A DNA stretch of 45,347 bases from Alphaproteobacteria bacterium UBA2964 (GTDB lineage: Bacteria; Pseudomonadota; Alphaproteobacteria; MPNO01; UBA2964), in the NCBI GenBank assembly GCA_905182615.1, contig CAJJCG010000047.1, forward strand, positions 1-45,347, written 5' to 3'. Under the pieces are notes generated by a model. The model had not been told where the DNA came from, ran no database searches, and saw only the letters and a program-made list of their open reading frames with translations. The number at the start of each line of letters is the position of its first letter. Position 1 is the stretch's first letter. The position numbers were made by a program, and so were the translations under genes. This document shows positions 1 through 5,233 of the stretch, piece after piece.

Positions 1-524
1 TTTTCCAGATCGATATCGAGCGCCTGGAATATACGCGTATGCATATTATAGGTGCCTATCAGAACCGTCAGACCAATTATCCCCTCATCGTCAAAATGTG
101 CCGCGACCGCGTCATAAATCTCATCCGGCACCTGAATGTCGCGCGACATTGAATCTGTGTAGGCAAGGATTGCCCGATCCCGACCATCAAACAGGTCAGA
201 GTTTTCCCAATCCTTCAGCGCATCGCATTCCGCCACAGACAGACCTTCGGCTTCGGCAAGCTCGGGGACATGCTGTTTGATGACGTATTGTACCCGGTTG
301 AAATAGCCAATCCGGATGATGATCAGCTCACGGAGTCGGCCTTCGACGCCAAGTTCCCAGCGGACCATGTTAACAAAATCAAACCAGCCCGTTGCGGCCG
401 GCGGATTGTTCATCAGCATTTTGTATATATTGAGAAGCTTGCCGCGACGGCCGGCTTTTAATTTATCGACGAACTCAGCGAGTTCGAGTTTACCTTCCGC
501 CTCAACGAGAGAAACGCGCGCCAT
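1..524 (-). CDS. Carboxymuconolactone decarboxylase (CMD/AhpD-like) family protein, partial
   Basis: The reading frame runs off the left edge, so the C-terminus is missing; about 174 residues are visible. The central stretch, with a conserved R-E-L-I-I-I-R-I-G-Y-F-N-R, then Y-V-I-K-Q-H and later D-R-A-I-L-A-Y-T-D, is the helical core of the CMD superfamily (PF02627). Members of this family are all-helical proteins that include AhpD, a thiol reductase for peroxiredoxin. The C-x-x-C of true AhpD is absent here, with only the motif histidine kept, so a thiol-reductase role is doubtful. The start is the ATG at 522-524, with GGAGG a few bases upstream. It follows a selenoprotein peroxiredoxin on the same strand by about 49 bases, so the two probably share a transcript. 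Function beyond the fold is not known. Confidence 0.8.
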   Translation of the reverse strand, partial: MARVSLVEAEGKLELAEFVDKLKAGRRGKLLNIYKMLMNNPPAATGWFDFVNMVRWELGVEGRLRELIIIRIGYFNRVQYVIKQHVPELAEAEGLSVAECDALKDWENSDLFDGRDRAILAYTDSMSRDIQVPDEIYDAVAAHFDDEGIIGLTVLIGTYNMHTRIFQALDIDLE

Positions 525-573: not shown

Positions 574-1062
574 TTACTTCTGAGCTGCTTCGGCTTTCCG
601 TTTCTCGAAAAGCTGCACCAGCTTGATAACATCAGCAGCGTCCATTCTTGCGAGTGGACCATCGCTGTAACTCGACGAAACAACTTTAGCATCATCGCCA
701 AGCAGAAACTCGGACGGCTGAATAATGCTCCGGCGGTCTTCCCACCAGGCACCCATCTGATCCGCCTGCTCGCGTGTAACGCCTTGACCGACGGGGAACG
801 AAACCTCATCAGCCACCATTTTCGCCTCGTCACCAGTATCGATGCTGGCAGCAATGACTTTTATGCCTTCAGCTTCGAGCGTGGCTTTTTCCTTTTCAAA
901 ACCGACCAACTGCCGGCGGCAGTATGGTCACCAATGACCCCGATAAAAGAGGATCACCTGATATTTGGCATCCCCCAGATCGGGTAGTGTTGCCGTTCCG
1001 CCGCCGACCAGATTAAGGGTCATTTCGGGGAAGACATCACCGATCTCCAGTTTTTTCGCCAT
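574..1062 (-). CDS. Peroxiredoxin-like (AhpC/TSA fold) selenoprotein with in-frame TGA as selenocysteine
   Basis: Read through one in-frame TGA (928-930), this is a continuous 162-residue thioredoxin-fold protein. The first part ends V-I-L-F-Y-R-G-H-W at residue 44, the TGA is residue 45, and the frame continues P-Y-C-R-R-Q-L-V-G-F. The family norm is F-Y-R-G-x-W-C-P-Y-C, so selenocysteine replaces the peroxidatic cysteine and gives a U45-x-x-C48 redox centre. No base insertion or deletion is needed, both halves are conserved in kind, and selA, selB and selC lie 1-4 kb away; these facts argue against a pseudogene. Expected role is reduction of peroxides or another thiol-redox reaction in the cytoplasm, since no signal peptide is seen. 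The start is ATG 1060-1062 with GGAG seven bases upstream. It is divergent from the deiodinase-like gene and precedes the CMD gene on the same strand. Confidence 0.88.
905..928 (-). promoter_or_regulatory. SECIS-like hairpin of the peroxiredoxin selenoprotein
   Basis: On the minus strand the bases just after the TGA fold as ACCA / CTGCC - GCC loop - GGCAG / TGGT, with a small uneven internal loop (TA against T). The first apical base is G, as expected for bacterial SECIS elements. The loop begins only about ten bases after the TGA, closer than usual for SelB-bound elements, so the precise fold is uncertain. The design resembles the hairpin in the neighbouring selenoprotein gene. Confidence 0.55.
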
Positions 1063-1127: not shown

Positions 1128-1190
1128 TGCCGAATGGAACAAATAGTCCTAGCATCAGGTTATAAGGAAATTACTGGGAGGAAGAATCCA

Positions 1191-1865
1191 ATGGACCCCC
1201 GTTTTGAACAGTTCAAGGATTTGGACTGGGACGCAATGAGCTTTCCAGAAAAGCGCAAGGTCTGGTTGCAGATATCAGACATGACCGCCGAAGAGTTCGA
1301 CACCATGATGACTGGCCAGAAAGCCCGTCAGGGCAATGTACCAAAGATTGGTGAAATGGCGCCGGACTTTAAGCTGGAGCGTCTTGACCGGAGCAAAAAG
1401 CGTACCGGTGAATACGTAGAACTCTCAGCCCTAAGAGGAAAGTCGGTAGCTCTCTGCTTCGGCTCGTATACCTGACCCCCCTTTCGTGATCAGTCCGTGC
1501 GACTGAACGAAGTTTACGAAGCAAATAAAGACAATATTGAATTCTTCCTGATCTATGTATGTGAAGCACACCCTTCTGATGGCTGGCAGACGCTGCAAAA
1601 TCTCGAAACCGAGATTTTCTATAAGGCGCCAACGACGGCTGATGAACGCGCTGAAATTGGCAATGCCTGCCAGATCGGGCTTGATCTCAAATACCCCATG
1701 CTCATCGACAACATCGACAATGAGGTGGAAAACAAATATGTCGCAGCACCAATCCGGCTGTTTGTCATCGATCCCGACGGCAAAATTACCTATGCTGGCG
1801 GAGAAGGCCCGCACAAGTTTGACCCGGATGGCTGGGAAGAAGCCATTAAGGCGCAAACAAACTGA
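1191..1865 (+). CDS. Iodothyronine-deiodinase-like selenoprotein with in-frame TGA as selenocysteine
   Basis: Read through the TGA at 1473-1475 (residue 95), this is a 224-residue protein. The active-site stretch G-S-Y-T-U-P-P-F matches the vertebrate deiodinase hallmark G-S-x-T-U-P-x-F. Further matches follow: I-Y-V-C-E-A-H-P-S-D-G-W (residues 121-132) corresponds to the deiodinase I-Y-I-E-E-A-H-x-S-D-G-W, and Y-V-A-A-P-I-R-L-F-V-I (183-192) to its Y-A-A-L-P-E-R-L. It therefore belongs to the T4_deiodinase family (PF00837) on a thioredoxin fold. Unlike animal enzymes it has a soluble helical N-terminal region instead of a membrane anchor. The substrate is unknown; bacterial members are not shown to act on thyroid hormones, and thiol-redox or reductive dehalogenation are both possible. 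ATG 1191 is preferred because GGGAGGAAG lies six bases upstream; an in-frame ATG at 1134 lacks this. selA starts 33 bases after its stop. Confidence 0.92.
1483..1511 (+). promoter_or_regulatory. SECIS-like hairpin of the deiodinase-like selenoprotein
   Basis: Seven bases after the TGA the sequence folds as TTCGT (1483-1487), GAT internal loop, CAGTC (1491-1495), loop CGTGC (1496-1500), GACTG (1501-1505), single A, ACGAA (1507-1511). Both stems are perfectly paired. A G lies in the first two loop positions, and the apical loop starts about 20 bases after the TGA. Both features agree with bacterial SECIS rules, which makes UGA recoding by SelB credible. Confidence 0.75.
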
Positions 1866-1898
1866 TATAAATTTTGATGTGATCCGGTGGAGTCTCGC

Positions 1899-3323
1899 AT
1901 GACGGACTCCACCGCGTCTCTCTTCTCCTCCATACCTTCGGTCGACAAACTACTTAGGACACCCGACGCTGAAACGCTGATCGACTCTTTTGGTCGCCAA
2001 CCGGTGACCAACGCCGTACGCGACGATCTCGCGACGCTACGACAAGCCCTGGCAAAAAAAGATAATGTGGAAACTGGTGATGTTTCTTCCGCCAATATTC
2101 TCGCACGAGTGGCGGCACGACTCGAAGCAGATCTGTCGCCATCGCTTAAGCCGGTTTTCAACCTGACCGGCACGGTGCTGCATACCAATCTAGGCCGCGC
2201 GCCTTTGCCAGAGGAAGCAATTGACGCGATCGCGGCGGTATCCCGCGGCGCTAGCAACCTCGAATATAATCTGTCTACCGGCAAACGTGGCGACCGTGAT
2301 GTCCACGTCGAGGAGACCCTCGCCCAGCTGACAGGTGCCGAAGCCATTACCGTTGTGAACAATAATGCCGCCGCTGTACTACTGATGTTGAACGCGCTCG
2401 CTTTGCGTAAAGAAGTCATCGTCTCACGCGGCGAGCTCATCGAAATCGGTGGCGCCTTCCGGATACCCGATATTATGTCGTGCGCCGGGGCCAAGCTGCG
2501 CGAAGTTGGCACTACCAACCGAACCCACCCCAAGGACTTCGAAGAAGCAATTAGCCCAAAGACCGCGATGTTGATGAAAATCCACACCAGCAATTATGAG
2601 GTCCAGGGCTTTACCGCAGCGGTGTCCGATCCTGACCTTGCGGCTCTCGCCCACAAAAACGACCTGCCCTTTGTGATTGACCTCGGCAGCGGCACCATGA
2701 CCGACTTGCGTCAGTTTGGTCTGCCGCATGAACCAACCGCCCAGGAAGCGTTAGCGAGTGGTGCTGATCTCGTGAGCTTTAGCGGCGACAAGCTCCTCGG
2801 TGGCCCGCAGGCTGGAATTATTGCCGGCCGCGCCGATCTCATTGCGAAGATTAAAAAGAACCCAATGAAGCGCGCCATGCGCTGCGATAAGATGACGATT
2901 GCCGCCCTGGAAACCATTTTGCGGCTCTATGCTGATCCCGATCGGCTGGCCGGGCGCATACCAACACTGCGTCTACTGGCCCGCAAACAGGACGACATTC
3001 AGGCAACCGCGGCGCGCGTCTCTACGATGCTCGATACCGCTCTCGGCGACCGGTATGAAATTTCTCTGGAGCATTGCCAAAGCCAAATTGGCAGCGGTTC
3101 TTTACCTGCTGAACGGCTCGACAGCATCGCGCTCGTTATCCGCCCCACAGCCGCGAAAGGTGTCGGCACAGCGCTTAAAAGACTAGCCACCGCCTTTCGC
3201 AATTTGTCCATGCCGGTTATTGGTCGCATTCAGGACGATGCCTTTTGGTTGGATTTACGCTGTCTGGAAGCAGGTAACGAAGATGCTTTCACCAGCCAGC
3301 TCGACGCACTGCAGATAAAATGA
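1899..3323 (+). CDS. selA: L-seryl-tRNA(Sec) selenium transferase
   Basis: SelA is the PLP-dependent cytoplasmic enzyme that converts seryl-tRNA(Sec) to selenocysteyl-tRNA(Sec) using selenophosphate. This 474-residue product has near-normal family length. It carries the N-terminal-domain-to-core stretch F-N-L-T-G-T-V-L-H-T-N-L-G-R-A-P-L, the T-G-A-E-A-I-T-V-V-N-N-N-A-A-A-V motif, and the PLP-lysine motif S-G-D-K-L-L-G-G-P-Q-A-G with the lysine at residue 298. The start ATG 1899 has GGAG six bases upstream; an in-frame GTG at 1887 overlaps that site and is less likely. It lies just downstream of a selenoprotein gene and overlaps selB by four bases (ATGA), so translational coupling of the two factors is likely. 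Confidence 0.97.
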   Translation: MTDSTASLFSSIPSVDKLLRTPDAETLIDSFGRQPVTNAVRDDLATLRQALAKKDNVETGDVSSANILARVAARLEADLSPSLKPVFNLTGTVLHTNLGRAPLPEEAIDAIAAVSRGASNLEYNLSTGKRGDRDVHVEETLAQLTGAEAITVVNNNAAAVLLMLNALALRKEVIVSRGELIEIGGAFRIPDIMSCAGAKLREVGTTNRTHPKDFEEAISPKTAMLMKIHTSNYEVQGFTAAVSDPDLAALAHKNDLPFVIDLGSGTMTDLRQFGLPHEPTAQEALASGADLVSFSGDKLLGGPQAGIIAGRADLIAKIKKNPMKRAMRCDKMTIAALETILRLYADPDRLAGRIPTLRLLARKQDDIQATAARVSTMLDTALGDRYEISLEHCQSQIGSGSLPAERLDSIALVIRPTAAKGVGTALKRLATAFRNLSMPVIGRIQDDAFWLDLRCLEAGNEDAFTSQLDALQIK

Positions 3324-5233
3324 TTATCGCGACCTCTGGCCATATCGATCACGGCAAGACTGTTCTCGTCAAAGCGCTTACCGGCGTCGATACCGACCGG
3401 CTACCGGAGGAAAAAGCACGCGGTATCTCTATCGATCTAGGGTACGCCTATCACAAGCTCGACGAGGACAACGTCCTAGGATTTGTCGACGTCCCCGGCC
3501 ATGAAAAGTTTGTCCACAATATGCTGGCAGGTGTTACCGGCATCGATTACGCGCTGCTGGTCATCGCCGCGGATGACGGACCGATGCCCCAAACCGAAGA
3601 ACACCTGGCAATCCTCGATTTACTAGGACTTTCAGCCGGTGCCGTTGCCATCACAAAGATCGACCGGACAGAACCCGAACGTGTCGAAGAGGTTATCGAG
3701 CTAACCGAGATGCTACTCGACGGCACCTCGCTTGAAGGAGCCCCCATCTTTCCGGTATCTGGCATTAGCGGTGATGGCATTGCGGAGCTGCGCACACACC
3801 TTGAGACAGTCGCCATCGAATTCAGCTCTTCCCAGCATGGTGGGAACTTCCGCCTTGCCATTGACCGGCGCTTTACGGTTCCGGGTGCTGGGCTCGTCGT
3901 TACCGGCAGTGTATTTTCCGGCAAAATCGCCGTCGGCGATCAATTGGTTCTTTCACCGGCTGGCTATCAGGCACGGGTGCGCGGTATTCATGCTCAGAAC
4001 CGAGATTCCGAAACCGGACAAGTCGGTCAACGCTGCGCGCTAAATATTACAGGCTCCGACCTGGACAAAGAACAGGTCCATCGCGGCAATTGGGTTTTAA
4101 CAGAATCCGTCCACGCACCAACCAAACGCTTCGATGCCCGCATCCGATTGCTTAAGTCTGAACCGCGCGCGCTAAAACATTGGACCCCAGTTCACCTTCA
4201 TATTGGTGCCGCGGATATCAGCGCCCGCGTCGCTCTGCTGGATGGCAAAACTATCGCACCTGGCGGCTCTGCAATCGTGCAGCTGGTCCTCGACGAGCCG
4301 GTTGGCGCTCTACATGGCGATCGGTTGATCCTGCGGGATCAATCAGCGCGGCGGACCATGGGCGGCGGCAGCGTCATTGATCCCTTCGCGCCAACCCGGG
4401 GCCGCTCAAAGCCTGAACGGCTCGCCGCCCTTGCGGCCATGGATAGCAGCGACCCGTTCGAAGCGATGAGCCTGTTGCTAGAGGCACAGCCAAACGGCAT
4501 CGCTTTGGCCCAATTCGTCATCAGTCGCAATCTGACAAATGATCGGGCGGAAGCCCTTTGGGCTGATCTCGACATGATCATTACTGGCCGGGATGAGGAT
4601 CGCACCGGCATTGCCCGGTCTCGCTGGGAGGCGCTGGCGGCAGAGATTCTAACGGCCCTCGATAAATGGCATAGCGAACGGCCGGACCAGCTTGGTCCGG
4701 CAGAAAACACTTTGCGTTTATCTTTCGATCCGAGGCCGCCTTTGCCTTTGTTTAAGGCCGTGGTGGGCCAGCTCGCCGCCAAAAACAAGATCGTCCTCGC
4801 CAACCGACTACTCCGTCTGCCCAGCCATCAGCCGGGCATGAATGCACAGGACAAGAAACTCTGGTCAGATGTTCGCCAAACCATGGAAGAAGCCAGGTTA
4901 CGGCCTCTCTCTCTGCACGAAGTTGCTGACGAGATGGAGATTAAGGTCACGGCCCTAACCGCCTTTATGCGCCGCGCTGCTGCGACTGGTTTTGTCCTAC
5001 AGATTTCACAAACTCGGTTCTTACTGCCAGATGCGGTGCAGGAATTGGCCGGTATCGCCGAAACACTCGCCACGGAGAGTGAGATCACTGCTGCCGAGTT
5101 TCGCAATAAATCCGGCATTGGCCGCAATATGGCGATCGAAATACTAGAATTTTTCGATAAATCCGGTCTGACCAAGCGCGATGGCAATCTACGCCATATC
5201 GTCAAATCGGCGGCAGAGATATTTGGAGGATAG
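3320..5233 (+). CDS. selB: Selenocysteine-specific elongation factor SelB
   Basis: SelB is a GTPase that delivers Sec-tRNA(Sec) to ribosomes stalled at UGA and binds the SECIS hairpin with its C-terminal winged-helix domains. The 637-residue product shows G1 G-H-I-D-H-G-K-T (7-14), switch region G-I-S-I-D-L-G-Y (35-42), G3 D-V-P-G-H (57-61) and G4 T-K-I-D (112-115). EF-Tu-like beta-barrel domains follow to about residue 350. The last 270 or so residues have the helix-rich pattern of tandem winged-helix repeats. Length and order fit a complete bacterial SelB. The start overlaps the selA stop, and selC follows 44 bases after the stop. The full C-terminal domain implies that real SECIS elements are used by this organism. 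Confidence 0.97.
   Translation: MIIATSGHIDHGKTVLVKALTGVDTDRLPEEKARGISIDLGYAYHKLDEDNVLGFVDVPGHEKFVHNMLAGVTGIDYALLVIAADDGPMPQTEEHLAILDLLGLSAGAVAITKIDRTEPERVEEVIELTEMLLDGTSLEGAPIFPVSGISGDGIAELRTHLETVAIEFSSSQHGGNFRLAIDRRFTVPGAGLVVTGSVFSGKIAVGDQLVLSPAGYQARVRGIHAQNRDSETGQVGQRCALNITGSDLDKEQVHRGNWVLTESVHAPTKRFDARIRLLKSEPRALKHWTPVHLHIGAADISARVALLDGKTIAPGGSAIVQLVLDEPVGALHGDRLILRDQSARRTMGGGSVIDPFAPTRGRSKPERLAALAAMDSSDPFEAMSLLLEAQPNGIALAQFVISRNLTNDRAEALWADLDMIITGRDEDRTGIARSRWEALAAEILTALDKWHSERPDQLGPAENTLRLSFDPRPPLPLFKAVVGQLAAKNKIVLANRLLRLPSHQPGMNAQDKKLWSDVRQTMEEARLRPLSLHEVADEMEIKVTALTAFMRRAAATGFVLQISQTRFLLPDAVQELAGIAETLATESEITAAEFRNKSGIGRNMAIEILEFFDKSGLTKRDGNLRHIVKSAAEIFGG

Follow-up and report, generated by a model that had tools for sequence, protein, structure and literature searches.

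A deiodinase-family selenoprotein with a predicted selenocysteine–cysteine pair, encoded next to selA, selB and selC in a marine alphaproteobacterium

Introduction

The deiodinases that act on thyroid hormone have been called metazoan-specific (PMC9141512). A 2005 study of the Sargasso Sea reported deiodinase-like selenoproteins of bacteria and suggested a redox role for them (PMC1088965), and reviews of 2022 and 2026 tabulate the family without a function and under the motif UxxC (PMC9312934, PMC13188914). Among the vertebrate enzymes, Dio3 carries a proton network of His219, Glu200, Ser167, Tyr197 and Thr169, a substrate clamp formed by His202 and Arg275, and the resolving cysteines Cys168 and Cys239 (PMC12025243, PMC11592359, PMC9141512).

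Here, we describe a member of this family from a marine alphaproteobacterium, Alphaproteobacteria bacterium UBA2964, encoded in a window of 45,347 nucleotides (the whole stretch analysed; contig CAJJCG010000047.1, positions 1 to 45,347). The window protein shares with the known bacterial deiodinase-like selenoproteins the PF00837 domain, an active-site selenocysteine (Sec) with a bacterial SECIS, and a bacterial host. An earlier note on this DNA had suggested that such a bacterial form could be new, which is not borne out, since these forms have been catalogued since 2005 (PMC1088965, PMC9312934, PMC13188914). To the known family we add the comparison with the Dio3 core, a pattern of apparently relocatable cysteines and the abundance of the family in Planctomycetota, mostly as Sec forms; for the selA-selB-selC operon, the cysteine pairing and the Planctomycetota abundance, no description was found in the open-licence literature.

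Results and Discussion

A soluble member of the deiodinase family

The gene and its immediate signals are as follows.

1191..1865 (+): deiodinase-like selenoprotein gene, 224 aa, one Sec; PF00837, Dio2/Dio3 as nearest solved folds, AlphaFold2 pLDDT 94.4
1176..1182 (+): plausible Shine-Dalgarno-like GGGAGGA, 8 nt 5' of the ATG, by direct sequence reading
1473..1475 (+): TGA codon 95, read as selenocysteine (U95), kept in all close homologues

The frame opens with ATG at 1191 and closes with its second TGA, and both the sequence and its translation agree with the coordinates, frame and U95 of the earlier note. The protein reads MDPRFEQF...GSYTUPPFRDQ...YVCEAHPSDGW...YVAAPIRLFVID...GGEGPHKF. Its best Pfam match was PF00837 (80.5 bits, E=1.5e-22; cut-off 27), 33 bits above the AhpC-TSA match (47.7 bits). 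The nearest solved proteins by sequence were mouse Dio3 (4tr3, E=5e-14, 55 bits) and Dio2, and a profile built from 57 homologues raised these two matches to 108 and 106 bits, with all else at 36 or below. AlphaFold2, run on 57 sequences with Sec modelled as Cys, returned a model with a pTM of 0.91, for which a Foldseek search of 350,542 chains ranked Dio2 first (TM 0.82 by target) and Dio3 second (0.70), followed by ResA and PrxQ. An ordinary AhpC or thioredoxin assignment, named in the earlier note as the outcome that would speak against a deiodinase, is ruled out by this profile ranking and fold, and the EAHPSDGW block aligns to Dio2 and Dio3. The assignment to the deiodinase family thus stands, and we regard both PF00837 membership and the reading of the TGA as Sec as nearly certain. 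The NCBIfam model NF038285 ("deiodinase family protein") also aligns through its C-terminal domain to residues 49–219 (165 bits), although the match falls under the 250-bit cut-off and the model, at 347 aa, has an additional N-terminal part.

The window protein shares with vertebrate DIO1-3 (4tr3, 9h48) the fold, the Sec, the PPF, the Ser/Thr/Tyr/Glu/His network and EAHPSDGW, whereas it lacks the membrane anchor, carries Cys160, is about 25% identical by structure, and has no equivalents of Cys168, Cys239, His219, Phe258 and Arg275. Out of the three motifs previously read as vertebrate, EAHPSDGW is exact (residues 125–132); GSYTUPPF differs at position 93, where window-type proteins have Tyr/Phe and vertebrates Cys/Ala (GS[C/A]TUPPF); and YVAAPxRL corresponds to Y-G-A-Y-F-E-R-L in mouse Dio3, so that only half of this block is common. 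The proposal of a soluble N-terminus in place of a membrane anchor was confirmed: no anchor was found by hydropathy, the 19-residue maximum being 0.06, and the model places high-pLDDT helices at 18–28 and 33–49 in this part of the protein.

Decoding of UGA as selenocysteine

The elements that would serve codon 95 lie within and directly downstream of the gene.

1482..1512 (+): predicted bacterial SECIS; upper hairpin at 1490-1506, UCAGUC-CGUGC-GACUGA, apical loop CGUGC; covariation
1887..3323 (+): selA, L-seryl-tRNA(Sec) selenium transferase; TIGR00474, 606 bits; start GTG 1887 or ATG 1899
3320..5233 (+): selB, Sec-specific elongation factor; TIGR00475, 457 bits
5278..5369 (+): selC, tRNA-Sec (UCA); Rfam RF01852, 67.6 bits; ARAGORN

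Each of the 30 good homologues of the genus and order (60 related genomes) had exactly one in-frame TGA. In roughly 100 relatives drawn from several phyla, the Sec column held 90 TGA and 10 Cys, and an enlarged set, comprising these relatives and a PF00837-profile sampling of Planctomycetota, Acidobacteriota and Chloroflexota, held 138 Sec and 23 Cys. Comparison between genus members revealed a third-position excess, indicating coding constraint both 5' and 3' of the TGA. Since Rfam gave no SECIS match at the window gene, covariation was tested directly. The hairpin spans 17 nt, its start lying 17 nt downstream of the U of the UGA; in its upper stem, 91.7% of cells were paired against 25–47% in slid controls, two-sided (compensatory) changes occurred in four of six pairs, and the covariation score reached 0.511 against 0.19 when shuffled and 0.02–0.13 in slid controls. 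The lower stem pairs less well (about 66% in the CGUG-loop set) and we claim it with less confidence; folding a longer context around the TGA gave no stability excess (z -0.35). The G-U of the loop CGUGC is consistent with the recognition preference of E. coli SelB. As for the decoding machinery, selD lies on another contig of the same genome (306 bits), and tRNA-Sec exceeded 60 bits in 43 of the 50 genomes with a TGA form; cross-matches scored no higher than 54 bits, leaving a clear gap. Two assemblies (G461, G478) hold two strong tRNA-Sec genes each.

Standard annotation would close the frame at 1475. A true stop or a decayed gene is, however, opposed by the conservation of the TGA, the downstream coding constraint, the SECIS covariation and the full Sec pathway; this reading keeps practically no probability, and the kept TGA, the covariation and the third-position excess rule out a pseudogene. 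Together, these comparisons show UGA codon 95 to be a Sec codon with its own predicted SECIS, served by SelA, SelB, tRNA-Sec and SelD.

The deiodinase core is conserved and the substrate clamp is not

The equivalents of Ser167, Tyr197, Glu200 and His202 of Dio3 were present in all 112 bacterial Sec forms compared, and that of Thr169 in 111; in the window protein the core is Ser92/Thr94/Tyr122/Glu125/His127. The remaining Dio3 positions have changed. His219 is replaced by Pro in 106/112 (Pro147 in the window protein), and Phe258 by Pro in 112/112. The column of Arg275, whose numbering we derived from Phe258/Glu259 in the literature text and the chain sequence, varies across the bacterial family and is Glu205 here. 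Cys168 corresponds to Tyr/Phe in nearly all bacterial Sec forms, and the Cys239 column commonly holds Met, Phe, Ile, Leu or Tyr. The proton relay of a functional deiodinase is therefore incomplete in the window protein, which keeps the equivalents of Ser167, Thr169, Tyr197 and Glu200 while that of His219 is replaced, and so is the His202-Arg275 clamp, with His127 kept and Glu205 at the position of Arg275. This suggests that the window protein does not act as an iodothyronine deiodinase or thyroid-hormone enzyme.

A putative resolving cysteine that may change place

A further residue stood out in the alignment of the Sec forms.

1668..1670 (+): codon of Cys160, the predicted resolving partner of Sec95; 125/138 Sec forms have a cysteine at or near 160

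A cysteine lies at 158–162 in these 125 forms (exactly at 160 in 119), as against 7–8 of the 26–27 non-Sec forms (about 30%); Fisher's test gave p=3.6e-11, a value inflated by relatedness. In a smaller first sample none of 9–10 Cys forms had Cys160, and the contrast weakened once more Cys forms were added. A tree test of the Sec-Cys160 pairing, underpowered by the few independent switches, found about 1.8 of six pairs moving together and none oppositely, which is not significant. Among the 13 Sec forms that lack Cys160, alternative cysteines were found at 98 (UPPC) in three, 93 (CTU) in two, 143 in three and 92 in one; two others (L188, L221) have no cysteine in the aligned domain, and two (L186, L190) have cysteines at unconvincing places only. 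If each Sec enzyme holds a single relocatable regenerating cysteine, the expected pattern is Cys160 or an alternative cysteine and not both, and neither Cys93 nor Cys98 accompanies Cys160 in any of the 125 forms. As judged from these alignments, it looks as though one regenerating cysteine serves each Sec enzyme and can move between positions.

In the AlphaFold2 model, Cys160 sits in helix 150–163, after the second core strand. The resolving cysteine of Tpx peroxiredoxins likewise lies in a helix, alpha3 (PMC5302317), and human DIO1 offers a comparable Sec126-Cys124 selenenyl-sulfide, which the U126C variant showed in the form of a disulfide (PMC9141512). The atypical 2-Cys peroxiredoxins Tpx and PrxQ resemble the window protein in their thioredoxin fold and in the proposed pairing of a peroxidatic Sec/Cys with a helix-borne resolving cysteine in the same polypeptide, but they differ from it in their active-site signatures, and the window protein has the deiodinase insertion and the EAHP block. 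Its UPPF with a distal Cys160 also departs from the UxxC that the reviews give for bacterial deiodinase-like selenoproteins. Three secreted-looking relatives (L187, L189, L193) carry UPPC, a UxxC motif, without Cys160 and are probably the source of that motif.

Genomic context

A second putative Sec gene and its neighbor lie divergent from the deiodinase-like gene.

574..1062 (-): AhpC/TSA protein, GHWUPYC, second Sec gene; PF00578, 72.8 bits; TGA 930-928 kept in all relatives found
3..524 (-): carboxymuconolactone decarboxylase/AhpD-fold protein (CMD), downstream of the AhpC gene; PF02627, 24.2 bits; same place in the genus

Only 21 nt separate the stop of the deiodinase-like gene from the start of selA. 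Across the genus (L053-L059), CMD-AhpC(Sec) diverges from the deiodinase-like gene, selA and selB, followed by tRNA-Sec (located only in the window itself and, from its position, in G454-G456), a PhoU-like gene and a phosphate transporter. One of these loci (L057, NHFY01000069.1) lies on a contig titled Flavobacteriales that holds the whole alphaproteobacterial locus and is probably mis-binned. The TGA of the AhpC/TSA gene was kept down to 58% identity, and a Sec AhpC/TSA gene also adjoins the deiodinase-like gene in other genera (L060, L013, L088). Its SECIS candidate, CCGGC-AGUUG-GUCGG, becomes CCGAC-AGUUA-GUCGG in relatives with the pairs preserved; the single-sequence fold favors a different hairpin.

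Outside the genus, the neighbors were mostly varied, LysR regulators being the commonest family (5 of 76). Two kinds of LysR-type regulator diverge from the deiodinase-like gene in L091, L092, L097, L100 and L102; a search for an OxyR-type context found these recurrent divergent regulators to be GcvA- and BsrA/LeuO-like LysR proteins, not OxyR. No halogen-related gene recurs among the 76 neighbors. Further down the window, at 7493-34907, lies an aromatic/xenobiotic-catabolism-like cluster with two xanthine-dehydrogenase-type large subunits, a Rieske oxygenase with a LigXa domain, TauD, an amidase and a peptide-type ABC transporter.

Proposed mechanism and alternative functions

The best-supported mechanism, which we consider probable on the present comparisons, is that of a cytosolic reductase in which Sec95 and Cys160 act together in a peroxiredoxin-like cycle. 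Sec95 would attack a small oxidised substrate, most likely a hydroperoxide or a comparable electrophile, at its electrophilic atom, while the invariant Ser92/Thr94/Tyr122/Glu125/His127 network would place protons as in Dio3. Cys160 would then attack the oxidised selenium, forming a Sec95-Cys160 selenenylsulfide that thioredoxin or a low-molecular-weight thiol may reduce. Overall, this would amount to an atypical 2-Cys peroxiredoxin-like function built on a deiodinase core. We read the protein in this way because the core network is invariant, Cys160 is associated with Sec, ResA and PrxQ are among the fold matches, and a Sec AhpC/TSA gene adjoins. Counting against it, the deiodinase His127 and the conserved insertion have no obvious need in a thioredoxin-dependent peroxidase. 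The substrate is probably a peroxide or other small electrophile in preference to halogenated aromatics.

The earlier note had proposed either a redox or a dehalogenating enzyme and rightly held the role to be unsettled; its dehalogenating half is weakened because Arg275 and His219 are replaced and halogen-related genes do not recur nearby. A reductive dehalogenase, in which Sec95 would remove the halogen from a halogenated phenol or similar by halogen bonding and Cys160 would regenerate it, is possible and, in our estimate, unlikely. The invariance of the Dio3 core network with His127, the exact EAHPSDGW, the plausibility of marine halogenated aromatics as substrates and the aromatic-catabolism genes of the same window speak for it; the glutamate at the Arg275 clamp, a variable position in the family, and the prolines at His219 and Phe258 speak against it, and the compared gene neighborhoods give it no support. 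Still less probable is a selenium-boosted thiol-disulfide oxidoreductase of the ResA/thioredoxin kind, carrying out cytosolic disulfide exchange: in the fold search, ResA-type proteins follow directly after the deiodinases, some distant relatives carry UPPC and the reviews describe the family by UxxC, yet the window protein has UPPF without UxxC and its NCBIfam ResA match is far under the family cut-off. The genus-wide order of the deiodinase-like gene, selA, selB and selC with its short first gap would also suit a selenium-supply sensor, in which readthrough of the UGA in the operon's leading gene would tune selA-selB expression. We regard this as very unlikely, as the arrangement is limited to the genus and a looser case (L064), selA/selB-like neighbors were mostly not seen elsewhere, neither gene was seen at the paralogue loci of the same genome, and the deiodinase-like protein is itself strongly conserved.

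Distribution and evolution

PF00837 was found in 93 of 246 Planctomycetota genomes (about a third), with roughly nine in ten matches carrying a TGA; several of these forms are long or secreted/lipoprotein-like, with up to five copies per genome. Elsewhere, it occurred in 17/199 Acidobacteriota, 15/201 Chloroflexota and 10/398 Pseudomonadota genomes. The genome of the window protein encodes two paralogues about 50% identical to it, each with one in-frame TGA (G000:C114:934-1467, L002; G000:C4:11383-11904, L003), and at two other loci (L023, L117) two deiodinase-like genes adjoin on opposite strands.

Two bacterial Sec forms are membrane-anchored, one with GSCTUPPF (L197, 1471-2136, -) and one with ASCTUPPF (L159, 1357-2055, +), and their C-T-U-P-P-F is the site of vertebrate DIO1/DIO3. 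L197 matched Dio3 with 85 bits (E=4e-23), the window protein with only 55. A quick tree placed the mouse enzymes near a branch that holds L159 and L197 together with Cys forms of gammaproteobacterial type, drawn from the Pseudomonadota sample (support 87–93, unstarred); we treat this affinity as a lead and not as a result. Tentatively, and with the odds against it, deiodinase-like Sec enzymes may be ancient, widespread bacterial reductases whose resolving cysteine has moved (160, 143, 98, 93), the vertebrate deiodinases having come from the membrane-anchored GSCTUPPF branch (L197, L159) after a swap of the distal for the proximal cysteine. If true, a bacterial selenoprotein with a detoxifying role would have been modified into the thyroid enzyme.

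Despite the description of these enzymes as metazoan-specific, Sec-containing bacterial relatives of the deiodinases are common. Small, soluble and confidently modelled, predicted to hold a Sec-Cys pair and encoded in a Sec operon of its own, the window protein offers a practical object for finding the bacterial function of the family, and it may also help to understand how the regenerating cysteine of the deiodinases evolved.
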